Assembly: GCA_016882305.1 (NCBI GenBank)
Contig: VGQX01000007.1
Location: 1 to 47,583, forward strand
Length of the DNA stretch: 47,583 nt
Source: Cyanobacteria bacterium K_Offshore_surface_m2_239
Lineage (GTDB): Bacteria > Cyanobacteriota > Cyanobacteriia > PCC-6307 > Cyanobiaceae
Direction of reading: 5' to 3'
A program made the translations under genes and the position numbers. Numbering within the stretch: the first letter of the stretch is position 1; the number at the start of each line of letters is the position of its first letter. The notes beneath the pieces are model-generated. The model was not told the DNA's origin. It did no database searches and worked only from the letters and a program-made list of their open reading frames with translations. Positions 3,812-9,721 of this stretch are shown here, piece by piece.

Positions 3812-5083
3812 GTGACCAGCACCCTTCCGCCCCCGAACGCCGGCCCGCGTCTTGATCCGGCCTCCCTCGCCCCCGCGAGCCGGCCCGATCCCCTCGGCCG
3901 TTTCGGGCCCTATGGCGGCCAATACGTGCCGGAGACCCTGATGCCCGCCCTGGCGGAGCTGGAAGCCGCCGCCAAGGAGGCCTTGGCGGATCCGGCCTTC
4001 CGCGACCGGCTCAACCACCTGCTGCGCACCTATGTGGGCCGCCCCTCCCCTCTCTATGAGGCGGAGCGGCTCACGGAGCACTACCGCCGGCCGGAGGGGG
4101 GGCCCCGCCTCTGGCTCAAACGGGAGGATCTCAACCACACCGGCGCCCACAAGATCAACAACGCCCTCGGGCAGGCCCTTCTCGCCCTGCGGATGGGCAA
4201 GAAGCGGATCATCGCCGAAACCGGCGCCGGCCAGCACGGCGTGGCCACGGCCACGGTCTGCGCCCGCTTCGGCCTGGAGTGCGTGATCTACATGGGCAAG
4301 GAGGACATGCGCCGCCAGGCCCTCAATGTCTTTCGCATGCGTCTGCTCGGCGCTACGGTGCAGCCGGTGACAGCGGGCACGGCCACCCTGAAGGACGCCA
4401 CCAGCGAGGCCATTCGCGACTGGGTGACCAACGTGGAGACCACCCACTACATCCTGGGCTCGGTGGCGGGCCCTCACCCCTATCCTATGCTGGTGCGCGA
4501 CTTCCACGCCGTGATCGGCGAGGAGGCGAAGCGGCAGTGCGCCGCAGCCTTCGGCCGACTGCCCGACGTGCTGGTGGCCTGCGTCGGTGGCGGCTCGAAC
4601 GCCATGGGTCTGTTCCATGTCTTCGTGCCGGAACCCTCCGTGCGCCTGATCGGCGTGGAGGCTGCCGGGGAGGGGGTGGCCAGCGGGCGCCACGCCGCCA
4701 CCATCACCGAGGGACGGGTGGGTGTGCTGCACGGGGCGATGAGCCTGCTGCTGCAGGACGCGGAAGGGCAGGTGCAGGAAGCCCACTCCATCAGCGCCGG
4801 CCTCGACTACCCCGGCGTGGGTCCAGAACACAGTTATCTGCGCCAGATCGGGCGGGCGGAATACGGGGCGGTGACCGATGACCAGGCCCTGGCGGCCCTG
4901 CAGCTCCTCTGTCGGCTGGAGGGCATCATCCCCGCCCTGGAAACAGCCCACGCCCTGGCCTGGCTCGACACCCTCTGCCCCACCCTGGCTCCGGGCACGG
5001 AGGTGGTGATCTCCCTCTCCGGTCGCGGCGACAAGGACGTCAACACCGTGGCGGAGCGACTCGGGGATGGCTTAACCCGTTGA
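3812..5083 (+). CDS. trpB: Tryptophan synthase beta chain
   Basis: TrpB condenses indole with serine to tryptophan using PLP. The 423-residue product starts at GTG 3812 ([15 protein letters not shown]), matching the usual picocyanobacterial length; the open frame extends further upstream but without family similarity. Diagnostic segments are [33 protein letters not shown] with the PLP lysine in [30 protein letters not shown], the phosphate loop [32 protein letters not shown] and SGRGDKDV near the end. It stands alone here without trpA, as is common in cyanobacteria. Confidence is very high. Confidence 0.98.
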
Positions 5084-5121
5084 AGAATCGACGAAAAAGT
5101 TCAGCCACTTCAATCATCTTT

Positions 5122-5146
5122 GCCGGGTGACAATCGTCCCCCGGCC
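5122..5146 (+). terminator. Possible terminator hairpin after trpB
   Basis: GCCGGG and CCCGGC form a perfect 6-bp stem around a 12-nt loop about 40 nt past the trpB stop. An A/T-rich stretch follows but without a true T-run, so this is a weak call. Confidence 0.35.
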
Positions 5147-5235
5147 AAACATAGCAAAATATATTTATTCCCAGACATTCCTGGGGATGGAGACTTATAT
5201 CTTTATCATGGAGACGAGGGCCTGCGCAAACAGAT

Positions 5236-5454
5236 TCAATACAAAAGATGGATGCGCTCCCCAAAAAGATGACTTAAAACCTCGCCCAAAAAACCTCTCT
5301 TGACAAATCCAACAACATAATTCTTCATCCACTGATTAACACCGTATGGGTCGAGACACATCGAGCAAGGCTCAGCCCAGTGATCAACTCTTTCCGGAAT
5401 AATCAGCCTCAAATAATCATGAAGAGCATTCGGGGCGCAAGGGGGAGCGTCAAG
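5236..5454 (-). pseudogene. Fragment of a polysaccharide-type (EpsG/Wzy-like) membrane protein
   Basis: Reading the minus strand from 5454 to the stop at 5238-5236 gives 72 codons with no good start: NALHDYLRLIIPERVDHW, then CSMCLDPYGVNQWMKNYV, then VGFVKRGFLGEVLSHLFGER. The DPYGVNxW...GFVKRGFLGE pattern resembles the N-terminal region of multi-spanning hypothetical membrane proteins found in surface polysaccharide loci; that resemblance is from memory and not verified. A stop lies directly upstream (5457-5455) and the reading stops after HLLY, so both ends are lost. The stretch is clearly more AT-rich than the flanking genes, which suggests a decayed, acquired gene. The rest of 5084-5524 shows no other gene. 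Confidence 0.45.
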
Positions 5455-5524
5455 TCAATTTGACGCAGAAAGATCCGAACAGAAGCAAGTAGCGGGAAGA
5501 CCAGAGAGGCCAGCGTTTTAGTGC

Positions 5525-6340
5525 TTACAAAGGATCCTCTTCCCATTGAAAACGGGGCAACTTTGCCAGGGTATCTTGCATGCCTCGGGCCCAGATTTCC
5601 ATCGAGCGGGTCACCTGGCGATTACCCTTCTCAAACTTCAGGCGCCGAGACACTCGCAGGGAGTCAGCGGGCACCAGGGCGAGCTCGAACGGCGGCCCCA
5701 CCGTAAGATTGGACCGACGCGTCACGATCTGAGACACGAGACAGAGGCGGGCGGCGTCCTCCAGGGACAAATGACTGTGCCCCACATAATCGAGCGGTGG
5801 CTTGCCGTACTTGCTCTCACCGATCTGGAGGAAGGGCGTTTCCGGCGTGGCCATGATCGCATTTCCCTGGGGATAGATGAGATAAAGACCATGGGGCTGT
5901 CCCGCGATCTGGCCTCCGAGAATGAAACTGGCCTCCCCGGTGGCGCCCGCCTCCCGCAGAGAATGGGCGTATTTGCGCTGCACGGCCACGCTCAAGGCAC
6001 CGATGTAGTCCGCCACCTCAAACAGATGACGAGCCTTGAGCAAATTCGGGGGAGCGTCGTCCGGACTTTTTCTCTTCTCCACTCCCGGGGAGTCGGCCTC
6101 TTCTCTACCTTCCGTGCTGAGCCCAGCATGATGATCATCAAGATGGCGAAGGATGCGGTTGAGAACTGCCTGCGTGGTGCCGAGATTACCCGCCGCCAAG
6201 ATCACAAAGATCCGATCAGGCGCCGGCTGAAAAACATGCATTTTGCTGTAGGTTGAAATATAATCAACACCCGCATTTGTTCTGGAATCCGAGGCAAAGA
6301 CAAGCCCCTGTTCCAACAAAAAAGCCACGCAATAAGTCAT
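5525..6340 (-). CDS. Anbu-type proteasome-like peptidase (bacterial ancestral beta subunit)
   Basis: The 271-residue product starts MTYCVAFLLEQGLVFASDSRTNAG at 6340. After Met removal Thr2 is the expected N-terminal nucleophile; Asp18 in ASDSR and Lys33 in YSKMH complete the proteasome-type catalytic set. ILAAGNLGTTQAVLNRI and the SFILGGQIAGQPHGLYLIYPQGN segment match the Ntn-hydrolase core of Anbu. Residues about 70-98 form a charged, probably disordered insertion (EGREEADSP... EKRKSPDD). Anbu genes usually sit beside alpha-E, ATP-grasp and transglutaminase genes; none is present here. It is 23 nt behind hrcA on the same strand, so co-transcription with the heat-shock repressor is likely. 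Substrate is unknown. Base composition is a little lower in GC than the neighbours. Confidence 0.85.
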   Translation of the reverse strand: MTYCVAFLLEQGLVFASDSRTNAGVDYISTYSKMHVFQPAPDRIFVILAAGNLGTTQAVLNRILRHLDDHHAGLSTEGREEADSPGVEKRKSPDDAPPNLLKARHLFEVADYIGALSVAVQRKYAHSLREAGATGEASFILGGQIAGQPHGLYLIYPQGNAIMATPETPFLQIGESKYGKPPLDYVGHSHLSLEDAARLCLVSQIVTRRSNLTVGPPFELALVPADSLRVSRRLKFEKGNRQVTRSMEIWARGMQDTLAKLPRFQWEEDPL

Positions 6341-6363
6341 GAGATCCCCCTTGATTGTTCCCC

Positions 6364-7377
6364 TCAGCTGAAACGGCGCTGCAGCAGCTGGGCCACTGAC
6401 TGCACCGCCGCCCGCGCCGTGGCGTAGGCCATGCGCATCGGACCCACAAGAGCCACCTGCCCGCGCCCGCCATCTCCCGTGCAATAGGGGCACTGCACCA
6501 CGGAACAGTGCGCCAACGCCGCATGGGGATGTTCGCTGCCGATCCACACCAGGCTCTGGAGATCCGATCCCCCCTGGCCCTGGGGCCCGAGCAACTGGTC
6601 GGGAGTGTTGTCAACCAGCCGCACCAAAGGCAGCAGGGAGGAGGTGCGGGCAAATTCCGGCTGGGACAGGAGCCCCCCCAAGCCAGCCACCAACACCGTG
6701 CCGGCGCCGTCCCCCGTCAACAGGTCATGGCTGTCCAGGGCTTGGCGCAGCAGGCGTCCGCCAGCACTCAATTCCGCCGGCAGACGATCCCAGGGAATCT
6801 GCCCATCGACCGTTGTGCTCAGCTGGCCATTCGCCCAGCCTTCCAGGATTGGCAACTGCCGTGACAGTCCCGGGGGAAGAGGCAGGTGCAGGCTGGTGCT
6901 CAAACCGCTCCCCTGAACCAGGATCACCAGCAGGCTTTCCCCGCTGGGCATGAGGCGCACCTCCCGCAGAAGGGGACCGCGCGTGCGCGGTCGGGTGATC
7001 AAGCTCAACAGCCCGGTGAGATCGGCCAGCCGCCGGGCGAAGTGCAGCAAAAGGTCGTCGAGGGCCGCCCACTGCAGGCTGAAACCCGCCAGCTCGCGAT
7101 CCAGCTGGGCTGCGGCCGCCCCGGGGGCGGGCAGAAGCTGATCCACGTAAAGGCGATAGCCCCGCTGGCTGGGGATGCGACCGGCGGAGGTGTGCGGCTG
7201 GGTCAGCAATCCTCGCGACTCCAGGGCACCCATCGCGGAACGCACCGTGGCTGGACTGGCTGGCAAGCCGAATCGCCGCACCAGGGCGTGACTCCCCACA
7301 GGCTCCATGGTGTCGACGTAGTGGCGAACTGTGGCCCGCAGAACCTCTTGTTGACGACGCGGCAGGGGGTCCACCAC
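6364..7377 (-). CDS. hrcA: Heat-inducible transcription repressor HrcA
   Basis: HrcA represses groE/dnaK-type chaperone operons by binding CIRCE elements. The 337-residue product begins at GTG 7377 (the next codon is also GTG) with LPRRQQEVLRATVRHYVDTMEPVGSHAL, a winged-helix N-terminus, followed by LPASPATVRSAMGALESRGLLTQPHTSAGRIPSQRGYR, the family signature. The long GAF-like middle and the C-terminal GPMRMAYATARAAVQSVAQLL are also present. It lies between a rhodanese gene (53 nt upstream) and the Anbu peptidase (23 nt downstream), all on the minus strand, suggesting one transcript. I saw no CIRCE inverted repeat in this neighbourhood. Confidence 0.95.
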   Translation of the reverse strand: MVDPLPRRQQEVLRATVRHYVDTMEPVGSHALVRRFGLPASPATVRSAMGALESRGLLTQPHTSAGRIPSQRGYRLYVDQLLPAPGAAAAQLDRELAGFSLQWAALDDLLLHFARRLADLTGLLSLITRPRTRGPLLREVRLMPSGESLLVILVQGSGLSTSLHLPLPPGLSRQLPILEGWANGQLSTTVDGQIPWDRLPAELSAGGRLLRQALDSHDLLTGDGAGTVLVAGLGGLLSQPEFARTSSLLPLVRLVDNTPDQLLGPQGQGGSDLQSLVWIGSEHPHAALAHCSVVQCPYCTGDGGRGQVALVGPMRMAYATARAAVQSVAQLLQRRFS

Positions 7378-7430
7378 CTTTTTGGGGGAAGGTGGTTGAT
7401 CTTAAGGGGACCACATGGGAGACGGCGTCT

Positions 7431-7793
7431 TCAATAGCGCGCGATGGAGGGATCCACGGCAACGCTCCAGGCGTCGATTCCACCCTCAAGATTCCACACG
7501 TCCCGGTAACCCCGCTCCGCCATCAGCCAACAGGCCATCCGCCAACTGCGCACACCGGCGTGGCACAGAACGACCACGGGGCGGTCGGGATCCAGGCGGG
7601 CCGCCACCGACGCCATCCACTCCGCGGCGCGGCTGAGGGGGAGATGCTCCGCGGGGTGGGGGATCCGGGCCAGGGCCAGCTCCTCGTCCTCGCGCACATC
7701 CACCAGTTGGAGCGCGTCGCCCGAGCGCAACCGGTCGGCCAGGTCGATGGCGCTGATGGAGCGGGGGGTGAGGTTCTCAGGGGCGGCGGTCAT
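7431..7793 (-). CDS. Rhodanese-like domain protein
   Basis: The 120-residue single-domain protein contains the rhodanese pattern ALQLVDVREDEELALARIP near the N-terminus, then VVVLCHAGVRSWRMACWLMAERGY with Cys in the CHAGVRS active-site loop, and VWNLEGGIDAW at the C-terminal end. Such proteins carry persulfide sulfur for transfer or thiol chemistry; the acceptor is unknown. No signal peptide is visible, so it is cytosolic. It is the first gene of a probable minus-strand unit with hrcA. The 240-nt region to the divergent DUF3352 gene holds only a G-rich stretch (about 7890-7925). Confidence 0.93.
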   Translation of the reverse strand: MTAAPENLTPRSISAIDLADRLRSGDALQLVDVREDEELALARIPHPAEHLPLSRAAEWMASVAARLDPDRPVVVLCHAGVRSWRMACWLMAERGYRDVWNLEGGIDAWSVAVDPSIARY

Positions 7794-8035
7794 CCACTGG
7801 TGAAGCGAGGGGACAGGTGGCGGGCAACGCGGGCGATCGCGCGGGACACGGCCGAAGCACCAGCCGACGAGTCACCGCACCGCATTTTGCCTGCGGCGGC
7901 GGAGGCGGCGGTGGGGGTGGACCTGAGGGTGTGGAAGGGGGAACCAGCGCCTCCGGGGAAAGGGGCGAAGGAAGGGAACGCCAGGGACAACGGGAACGAC
8001 GGGGGGCAGGATGGAAGACTCTCTGCTCAAGCGGA

Positions 8036-9721
8036 ATGAAGGGGCGGCCCTTCCTGGCGGTTCTCCTCGTCGTCGCGCTGCTGACCCTGGGTCTGGGGTG
8101 GGGCGGCTGGTGGCTGGTGTGGCGGCGAAGCCCCCTCCAGCTTCAGCGTCAGATCCTCACGGTGCCCCGCGCCGCCCGCTTCGTGCCGCGGCAGGCCCCG
8201 CTGAGCCTGTTCGTCTTCAGCGATGGCGAACAACCTGTCAACTACGCCCGCGCCGTGGCGCCCCTCCGCCAGCGGGACGCGGCCACGCGCGCCGTCGAAC
8301 GGTTGCGGGACGGGGCCTTTGCCGCCGCTGGTCTCGACTACCACGATGAGCTGGCCCCCTGGCTCGCCCCCGAGGTCGCCCTCGCCCTCTTCGACACCCC
8401 CGACACCCCGGCCGGCAGCGGTTGGCTTCTCATCCTTCACAGCAAGGACAGCGAGGGCGCCCGTCGCTTTCTGCAACGCTTCTGGCAGTCGCGCAGCCTC
8501 GCAGGCAGCGGCCTGCAGGTCAGCCAGTATCGGGGCATGGGCCTGATCAGCGGTCGCGGCGCCCTGGTCGGGCGCGACCCCGTGCCCCTGGCGACAGCGT
8601 TGGTGGAGGACGACCTCGTGCTGCTGGCCTCCGGGCGCACCACCCTGGAGCGCGCCCTTGATGTCTCCCAGATCGATGAGCTCAACCAGGCCGGACTGGC
8701 CGCCCTGGGGGAAGGGGTGGACCGCCTGGGCGAGGGCATGGCCCTGCTGGTGGCCCGATCAGGAGCCCTTGGTCCGTGGTTGGGACTGCCCTCCTTGGAC
8801 GTCGGTGAGCGCGGCTCAGGTCCGCTGCTGATCGGTGCGCTTCAGCCCCGTGGTCAGGAGCTGGTTCTGGAGGGGCTGCTTCAACGGCTCCCGGCCGCCC
8901 CTGCAGGCGCGCCTTCCCCCGCGGAGCCTCCCCTCGCGGACCAGCCTTCCCCCGCGGACCAGCGTTCCTCCGCCGACCAGCCCGCGGATGGGTCGACAGC
9001 GCTGACCTCAGCCCTGATCGAGGGTCTCGGCGCCGACTCCCTCAGCCTGGCCCTTCTGCGGAACCCGGCGGCCCTGCTGGCCCAACCCTGGCTGACCCCC
9101 CTTCTGGACACGATCACCCAGCCCCCGGGGGGAGGTCCCCTGCCGCCACTCCTGGCGGCGAAGGCATCCGGCCCGCTCCTCGTCTCCATGGACTCCGACG
9201 GCTGGCTGATCGGCACCAGCCGCACCAGTCCGCCTCTGGAGAGCCTGGAAGCTCCCCTGGCGGCGCAAGGTCTCATCGACGCCCCCTTGGACATCGATGG
9301 CGACAACGCCACGGTGTGGACCCGCCTCCAGGTCCCTGTCGCCGCCTCCGGCAGAAGCGCCGGCGGCGATGAACTGCGGGCCTCCGTGGTCGGTTGGCGC
9401 CAGGAGAGAGAGGAGCTGGCCTGGTGGGGCAGCGGTCTGGAGCGGCTCCAACACACGAACGCCCATCGGGGCGGGGGCGGGGGCGAACGCCAACGACAAC
9501 TCGCCTCGCTCGGAATGCCCCAAGCTCCCCTGCGCTGGGCGATGGGGCGCGAGGCCGCCATCGCGCTCCTGGGGCCATGGCGCCCATGGACGCTTCTCTC
9601 CTCCCTGGCCGGGGACTCCCTGAGCCGGGGCGTCCAAGGCCTGGCCGTCGCCGTCGAACCCGACGCCACCCCCGTACGCTGGATCGCGCAGCTTCAATTC
9701 GGCGCCGAACCCCATGGCTGA
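8036..9721 (+). CDS. DUF3352 membrane-anchored cyanobacterial protein
   Basis: The 561-residue product starts MKGRPFLAVLLVVALLTLGLG at 8036; codons upstream of it are glycine/arginine junk, so the longer frame from 7817 is rejected. Residues 5-30 form one membrane anchor (VVALLTLGLGWGGWWLVW). The body begins RAARFVPRQAPLSLFVFSDGEQP, the typical DUF3352 opening, and has repeated LALFDTPDT, LLILHSKDSEGARRFLQRFW and GLISGRGALVGRD patterns. Around residues 301-318 three 6-residue ADQ repeats form a low-complexity linker encoded by 18-bp tandem repeats. Function is not known; an envelope-side role is inferred. Its stop overlaps the sixA start by 8 nt. Confidence 0.85.
   Translation: MKGRPFLAVLLVVALLTLGLGWGGWWLVWRRSPLQLQRQILTVPRAARFVPRQAPLSLFVFSDGEQPVNYARAVAPLRQRDAATRAVERLRDGAFAAAGLDYHDELAPWLAPEVALALFDTPDTPAGSGWLLILHSKDSEGARRFLQRFWQSRSLAGSGLQVSQYRGMGLISGRGALVGRDPVPLATALVEDDLVLLASGRTTLERALDVSQIDELNQAGLAALGEGVDRLGEGMALLVARSGALGPWLGLPSLDVGERGSGPLLIGALQPRGQELVLEGLLQRLPAAPAGAPSPAEPPLADQPSPADQRSSADQPADGSTALTSALIEGLGADSLSLALLRNPAALLAQPWLTPLLDTITQPPGGGPLPPLLAAKASGPLLVSMDSDGWLIGTSRTSPPLESLEAPLAAQGLIDAPLDIDGDNATVWTRLQVPVAASGRSAGGDELRASVVGWRQEREELAWWGSGLERLQHTNAHRGGGGGERQRQLASLGMPQAPLRWAMGREAAIALLGPWRPWTLLSSLAGDSLSRGVQGLAVAVEPDATPVRWIAQLQFGAEPHG
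8936..8989 (+). repeat. Three 18-bp tandem repeats inside the DUF3352 gene
   Basis: Units at 8936-8953, 8954-8971 and 8972-8989 share the core GCSGACCAG and encode ADQPSP, ADQRSS and ADQPAD. They lie in a Pro/Ala-rich linker, so length changes by whole units would keep the frame. Confidence 0.85.

Follow-up and report, generated by a model that had tools for sequence, protein, structure and literature searches.

Anbu is a widespread relative of the proteasome for which no function, substrate or interactor is reported in the parts of the literature drawn on here (PMC6376114, PMC5666114, PMC8665760, PMC12316311 and PMC8400943). In those parts, the heat-shock repressor HrcA is mentioned in a single reference title, and no paper on a link between hrcA and anbu was found in the open-licence PMC literature. 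Such a link is described here for a stretch of 47,583 nucleotides from Cyanobacteria bacterium K_Offshore_surface_m2_239 (contig VGQX01000007.1), referred to below as the window. In the window, an anbu gene (5525-6340) lies behind hrcA (6364-7377) and a gene for a single-domain rhodanese (7431-7793), all on the minus strand. The rhodanese-hrcA-anbu arrangement is a conserved unit of this group of picocyanobacteria, and not an accident of one genome.

Conservation of the rhodanese-hrcA-anbu unit

The arrangement was followed in 119 related genomes, including the source genome; 42 of these belong to the same genus, probably Cyanobium or one close to it, and 31 are other members of the family. 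The paralogue present in the window, called A-type here, is found in 43 of the 119, namely in 40 of the 42 genus members and in three of the 31 other family genomes (G063, G070 and G072). In all 43 genomes, hrcA is its immediate upstream neighbour on the same strand (in G017, hrcA is cut by a contig end). The A-type assignment comes from the tree for 41 of the 43; for G039 it comes from a fragment of 48 residues (81% identical) at the end of a contig, and for G070 from position alone. The stop codon of hrcA and the start codon of anbu overlap as TGATG (a gap of -1) in 17 genomes, and the other gaps are 7-80 nucleotides long. In G063, for example, anbu begins at L039:7222, 54 nucleotides behind hrcA. 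The pair was not found in two genus members: G012 has a weak anbu match and no hrcA match, while in G032 hrcA is cut at a contig end and only an anbu of a second type (B-type) was found. G048 likewise gave a weak match.

Family loci without A-type anbu indicate how the unit changed. Since 10 of the 13 such loci keep trpB-hrcA-rhodanese intact, anbu is regarded as a piece added to the unit or lost from it. Of the remaining three, L108 has the rhodanese gene 2.3 kb away, and neither neighbour was found in L109 and L114. As judged from substitution ratios, A-type anbu is under purifying selection: the ratio of non-synonymous to synonymous substitution rates (dN/dS) is 0.06-0.12 in 10 of the 11 pairs tested, two of them with dS near 2, and the eleventh pair is saturated. 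The tie to the HrcA unit is taken to be more than a one-genome accident because of the adjacency in 43 of 43 genomes, the purifying selection and a second adjacency in another family, described below.

Identity and features of A-type Anbu

The window gene encodes a real Anbu. Its protein of 271 residues, an Ntn-hydrolase related to proteasome beta subunits, matches five distinct Anbu sequences in the PDB (E 5e-62 to 9e-47), and no Pfam or NCBIfam family at E 0.001. The AlphaFold model has a mean predicted local distance difference test score (pLDDT) of 85.4 and a predicted template modelling score (pTM) of 0.83; its best Foldseek matches are the Anbu entries 5loy, 5nyg, 5nyj and 5nyw, and the C-terminal extension helix H5 is present as a helix at residues 241-260. 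The catalytic threonine directly follows the initiator methionine, without a propeptide. Its codon (6335-6337, minus strand) is that of Thr2, which corresponds to the mature Thr1, with Asp18 and Lys33 as its partners D17 and K32. All 157 Anbu proteins aligned have Thr1, Asp17 and Lys32.

The original prediction, made from the letters of the window and a list of their open reading frames, pointed to a charged insert at residues 70-98, not expected in the core fold, and proposed a structure prediction for it. The insert is real, and in the window it is charged. The H1-H2 stretch is 39 residues long in the window protein, 19-130 in the 40 A-type proteins and 20-22 in the eight B-type proteins, compared with 13-17 in the 109 other Anbu rows (canonical cyanobacterial, C-type and proteobacterial). 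In the model, residues 71-100 have low confidence, with means of 54, 55 and 62 for blocks of 10 residues; residues 24-27 are also modelled with low confidence. Of the 16 A-type loops listed, none is as charged as that of the window (46%); Ala, Gly and Pro abound in several others, and the composition varies, which rules out a conserved charged domain. Given the low-confidence modelling and the varying composition, the H1-H2 stretch (residues ~74-105, 6026-6121 on the minus strand) is probably a variable, disordered loop. The A-type Anbu of G063 (L039:7222-8310), a protein of 362 residues, has an H1-H2 stretch of 130 residues that partly consists of short GREGVDREAV-type repeats.

The C-terminal tail behaves differently from the loop. 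The last ten residues of the window protein, PRFQWEEDPL (residues 262-271, 5528-5557 on the minus strand), belong to the motif LPRFxWE[EQH][DAS]PL, which ends 39 of the 40 A-type proteins, the exception being G070. The tail occurs in none of the B, C, H and P endings listed, where one proteobacterial protein also ends in DPL, and in none of the 12 endings listed out of 90 other canonical rows. At the columns of R263, F264 and L271, these residues reach no more than 5% outside the A-type. Because the tail is fixed where other Anbu proteins vary, its sequence suggests a specific contact.

A probable second joining of anbu to hrcA

In a class-wide draw of 146 genomes, 96 carry anbu and five have it beside hrcA (G000, G009, G095, G109 and G152). 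A group of such cases belongs to another family, f24, where rhodanese-hrcA-anbu was found in G109, G152 and G151, and hrcA-anbu in G095 and G119 (five of the 30 loci examined from the order). The Anbu proteins of G109 and G095 share 71-72% of their residues with another canonical cyanobacterial Anbu and 37% with the window protein. In the tree, the linked f24 proteins and one unlinked row (G142) form a clade of seven rows (support 96) inside the canonical clade (97), while A- and B-type Anbu form a clade of their own (100) that is separate from canonical Anbu. This suggests that f24 most likely joined a canonical anbu to hrcA independently.

The tree contains 157 distinct rows from 217 gene readings; matches without a nearby start codon, without a stop codon or shorter than 200 residues were left out. 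It is a quick build with a midpoint root and long-branch warnings. L125/L154 (G148) are labelled as hrcA-linked in it; their upstream side is cut by a contig end, and the protein is 94% identical to that of G095.

Canonical partners and Anbu paralogues

The window Anbu had been called an orphan, lacking the alpha-E, ATP-grasp and transglutaminase genes with which Anbu was thought normally to travel. These genes are indeed absent from the window: queries for alpha-E, ATP-grasp, several transglutaminases, glutaminase and N-formylglutamate amidohydrolase gave no match in the 47.6 kb (tblastn, E up to 0.01). The term orphan does not suit the genome as a whole. On another contig, C6 (L002:1552-9607), genes for ATP-grasp (PF14403), alpha-E (PF04168), transglutaminase (PF01841), DUF2126 and a glycogen-phosphorylase-like protein lie in one run, and a second anbu is found on contig C29.

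The expectation of constant company also has to be revised for cyanobacteria. In a survey of 80 cyanobacterial anbu loci (the best 80 of 156 matches to an f24 query, and thus leaning to the f24 side of the phylum; flanks of up to 4 kb, many of them truncated where a contig ends), alpha-E or ATP-grasp neighbours were found at 16 loci, transglutaminase only at four, hrcA at four and a GTPase at two. None of the queried genes was found at 54 of the 80, so an anbu without close partners is usual in cyanobacteria. An operon with ATP-grasp, alpha-E and transglutaminase, which the window Anbu does not have, is a frequent rather than a defining feature of Anbu.

The second anbu of the source genome is B-type (57% identical) and has a glutaminase gene, truncated by the end of the contig, behind it. 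Glutaminase follows B-type anbu at all eight loci, once as a partial match of 80 residues (the Pfam glutaminase family was checked at one). At the C29 locus (L033:10083-11772), RND-pump and HlyD-type genes lie 5' of anbu, with a TIR-TPR gene (L033:2433-3878) further upstream. C-type anbu, which was not found in the source genome (~96% complete), stands beside transglutaminase genes at six of seven loci (at L040, an open reading frame of 83 residues) and beside N-formylglutamate amidohydrolase at five of seven. Amylase-like, transglutaminase, N-formylglutamate amidohydrolase, alpha/beta hydrolase and glycosyltransferase genes were seen at the C-type loci L034, L052, L056 and L059 (Pfam on one or two, order by BLAST). 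Apparent stop codons inside C-type copies were taken as alignment past the natural stop, since the copies read as proteins of 242-254 residues.

Thus, with B-type beside glutaminase and C-type beside transglutaminases and mostly N-formylglutamate amidohydrolase, both of them nitrogen/glutamine settings, it is probable that each Anbu paralogue serves its own substrates or conditions. The three different neighbourhoods (hrcA for A-type; glutaminase for B-type; transglutaminases and N-formylglutamate amidohydrolase for C-type) suggest that Anbu has split by function in one lineage.

Anbu was also met in other settings. The Acidithiobacillus caldus megaplasmid (L234, NZ_CP005987.1) carries two anbu genes, one annotated as a hypothetical protein, near glnL/ntrC, an IS256 transposase, transglutaminase and ATP-grasp. 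A contig labelled Candidatus Gracilibacteria (L230, JAAUUT010000002.1) has an anbu whose place in the tree is beside Xenococcaceae; the contig is probably mis-binned. In a phage collection, two records matched, both labelled Acinetobacter phage.

Layout and regulation of the operon

The gene order and the 23 nucleotides between hrcA and anbu agree with what had been predicted; 53 nucleotides separate the rhodanese gene from hrcA. The hrcA-anbu junction (6341-6363, minus strand) contains a purine-rich stretch, AAGGGGGA, which we read as Shine-Dalgarno-like. For anbu, the ATG start at 6340 is preferred; a longer reading frame with a GTG start (5525-6547) overlaps hrcA and is not needed. The hrcA gene (GTG start, 337 residues) encodes the HrcA domain (PF01628, E 1e-27, over the cut-off), and its match to TIGR00331 (E 4e-50, 171 bits) is below the family cut-off of 197 bits. 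The rhodanese (PF00581, E 4e-15) has the loop CHAGVRS, which we take to be its active-site loop. On one side of the unit, a convergent trpB (TIGR00263) ends at 5083, and on the other a DUF3352 gene, divergent from the rhodanese gene, starts at 8036.

A check for heat induction of the unit had been proposed in the original prediction. HrcA acts in cyanobacteria with the controlling inverted repeat of chaperone expression (CIRCE), and a CIRCE-like site with three mismatches was found in the source genome at C19:11197-11223, ~95 base pairs 5' of a Cpn10 match. A reversed control pattern gave one genome match at the level of three mismatches; the exact core gave one site in the source genome and none in the control. 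From its sequence and position, C19:11197-11223 is likely to be an HrcA operator before groES. At the operon itself, the best CIRCE-like site in window positions 5000-8200 has mismatches at 7 of 18 positions, and none of the 42 genus genomes has an exact core close to hrcA, as judged by eye from the positions. Since no CIRCE was found at the operon in the window, the source genome or, as an exact core, the 42 genus genomes, heat control through CIRCE was rejected, and heat induction through HrcA is not predicted. A consensus scan of 5050-8100 found neither promoters nor terminators; because no terminator was found even 3' of anbu, the scan is uninformative.

A different element stands upstream of the unit. 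The palindrome CAGGATGG-N(2-3)-CCATCCTG lies 5' of the rhodanese gene, between it and the divergent DUF3352 gene and near the start codon of the latter, in 32 of the 42 genus genomes (for example, G002:C34:39343-39360). It occurs in one or two copies per genome, with no control matches. In the window it is degenerate, with one arm, CAGGATGG, remaining at 8007-8014. Fourteen genus genomes have an extra copy, with a spacer of three nucleotides, away from the operon; in L244, L250 and L259 (~1501-1519), the palindrome is ~10 nucleotides before a gene that resembles ureG (by eye, without a family scan).

A possible role for A-type Anbu

The explanation preferred here, tentatively and with a rough probability of 0.42, is that A-type Anbu is a dedicated protein-quality-control peptidase, produced constitutively together with HrcA and independent of ATP. 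Its starting point is the observed arrangement, in which an Anbu paralogue is fixed as the third gene of a cyanobacterial rhodanese-hrcA unit. To judge from the spacing, Anbu would be made with HrcA from one transcript, and in some species the overlapping stop and start codons may couple the translation of hrcA and anbu. By homology, removal of Met1 would expose Thr1, giving an ATP-independent Ntn-hydrolase or peptidase in an open, lock-washer-like assembly. The disordered loop and the conserved tail PRFxWExxPL could adapt this assembly to a dedicated partner or substrate class, and its job would be to remove peptides or damaged proteins constitutively, on the GroE/HrcA side of protein quality control. 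As the searches gave no HrcA operator at the operon, a constitutive rather than a heat-induced role is proposed. A more specific version, decidedly unlikely as a whole, is that the tail docks HrcA, GroEL or the rhodanese and the loops choose clients, so that the ring and the GroE repressor would act as a single proteostasis module with at least two origins in cyanobacteria.

The link of the peptidase to protein quality control was already part of the original prediction. What has held is the adjacency to hrcA, conserved in 43 genomes and repeated in f24; its quality-control meaning is still a matter of interpretation.

Several points weigh against this explanation. Firstly, 91 of the 96 anbu-bearing genomes in the class-wide draw do not have anbu beside hrcA, some of them only because of contig ends, and the coupling in f24 would be looser, since three of the five hrcA-anbu gaps there are 182-420 nucleotides; co-transcription itself is read from the spacing of the genes. 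Secondly, no CIRCE was found at the operon in the searches of the window and of the 42 genus genomes, and the heat-shock link is therefore one of position only. Thirdly, according to the sections of PMC6376114 drawn on, microarray data show no upregulation of Anbu by heat shock (a statement for which two references are given, one being a Synechocystis heat-shock/HrcA study), Anbu is high under nitrogen starvation, and no peptidase activity was detected for Yersinia Anbu; the nitrogen data agree better with the neighbours of the B- and C-type than with those of the A-type. Fourthly, co-adaptation of HrcA with Anbu was considered and rejected, since only three sites separate 33 HrcA proteins with anbu from 13 without it, and these may reflect phylogeny. 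Finally, given the quick build, the midpoint root and the long-branch warnings of the tree, an ancient association of hrcA and anbu, lost many times and followed by an exchange of the paralogue, is no more than unlikely.

The most serious competitor, possible although rated below the quality-control explanation, is that anbu was inserted behind hrcA and kept there for the steady transcription of that operon, and has a function unrelated to HrcA, in nitrogen or glutamyl-peptide turnover, like its paralogues. The neighbours of B- and C-type anbu are what would be expected in that case and count against a quality-control role, as does the missing CIRCE. The same direction is indicated by the two Acidithiobacillus plasmid anbu genes near glnL/ntrC and by the reported induction of Anbu in Pseudomonas putida when nitrogen is limiting (cited in the parts drawn on of PMC6376114 and PMC5666114). 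However, steady transcription alone does not easily explain why anbu should have been joined to hrcA twice, in distinct regions of the tree. By a rough, post hoc estimate, landing just behind hrcA on the same strand has a chance of ~1 in 8000, and a second case in ~100 rearrangements would have a chance of ~1%. The tail and the long loop, moreover, are specific to the hrcA-linked paralogue. With the published nitrogen and no-heat data agreeing more closely with the neighbours of B- and C-type anbu than with those of the A-type, the quality-control explanation is placed ahead of this rival.

It is unlikely that A-type Anbu is part of an ordinary, dispersed system and works with the alpha-E, ATP-grasp and transglutaminase proteins of contig C6. 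These genes, with those for DUF2126 and the phosphorylase, do lie in one run, and canonical cyanobacterial anbu is often dispersed too. However, with two anbu copies in the genome the A-type need not be the partner, no anbu match was found within 17 kb around the C6 cluster, and pull-downs with Yersinia operon proteins gave no specific interaction (PMC6376114, in the sections drawn on).

Feedback, in which A-type Anbu would degrade or process HrcA (or GroEL-bound HrcA) and so set the level of the repressor, is highly improbable. The tight gene order and a tail that could dock a partner are compatible with it, but the idea is conjectural, HrcA proteins with and without anbu differ at only three conserved sites, and HrcA occurs without A-type anbu in 13 of the family genomes examined. 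An inactive remnant or a chance reading frame, for which nothing was found to speak, is contradicted by the invariant catalytic residues, the strong purifying selection and the conserved gene order, and can be dismissed.

With anbu fixed behind hrcA in a three-gene unit, and the two genes joined in two separate lineages, there is a concrete place to look for the role of Anbu. The paralogue-specific tail is usable as bait, and the function of Anbu can be broken down into a few testable questions in small-genome cyanobacteria.

Comparison with known systems

With Anbu as described (COG3484, 'proteasome-type protease', Anbu-1 subtype), the window protein shares Thr1/Asp17/Lys32, the missing propeptide, the C-terminal helix and the fold. 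Its S1-pocket positions are T20/Y30/A48/L52/T55 (by position number, Pa-Anbu itself not being aligned), compared with T20/F30/T48/L52/S55 reported for the Anbu-1 subtype in the part of PMC5666114 drawn on, and do not form the basic pocket of Anbu-2. Ala48 is present in 38 of the 40 A-type rows, whereas Thr48 is reported for P. aeruginosa Anbu. The differences lie in gene position, 3' of hrcA and not in an ATP-grasp/alpha-E/transglutaminase operon, and in the H1-H2 stretch of 19-130 residues and the tail PRFxWExxPL (39 of 40) of the A-type.

Canonical cyanobacterial Anbu belongs to the same family at 36-43% identity to the window protein (33 compared); the clade of A- and B-type Anbu joins instead the Acidithiobacillus plasmid pair, with a support of 86 and a long-branch warning. 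The proteasome-type fold is common to 20S proteasome subunits, but their structural match is much weaker, with 20S subunits appearing from Foldseek rank 32 on and HslV absent among the best 50 matches listed. Unlike the 20S proteasome and HslV systems, the three-gene unit carries no AAA+ unfoldase gene. With the cyanobacterial HrcA/CIRCE system, the source genome shares hrcA and a CIRCE-like site before groES; the unit described here differs in having no CIRCE at its own operon and in carrying a peptidase gene as its last cistron.

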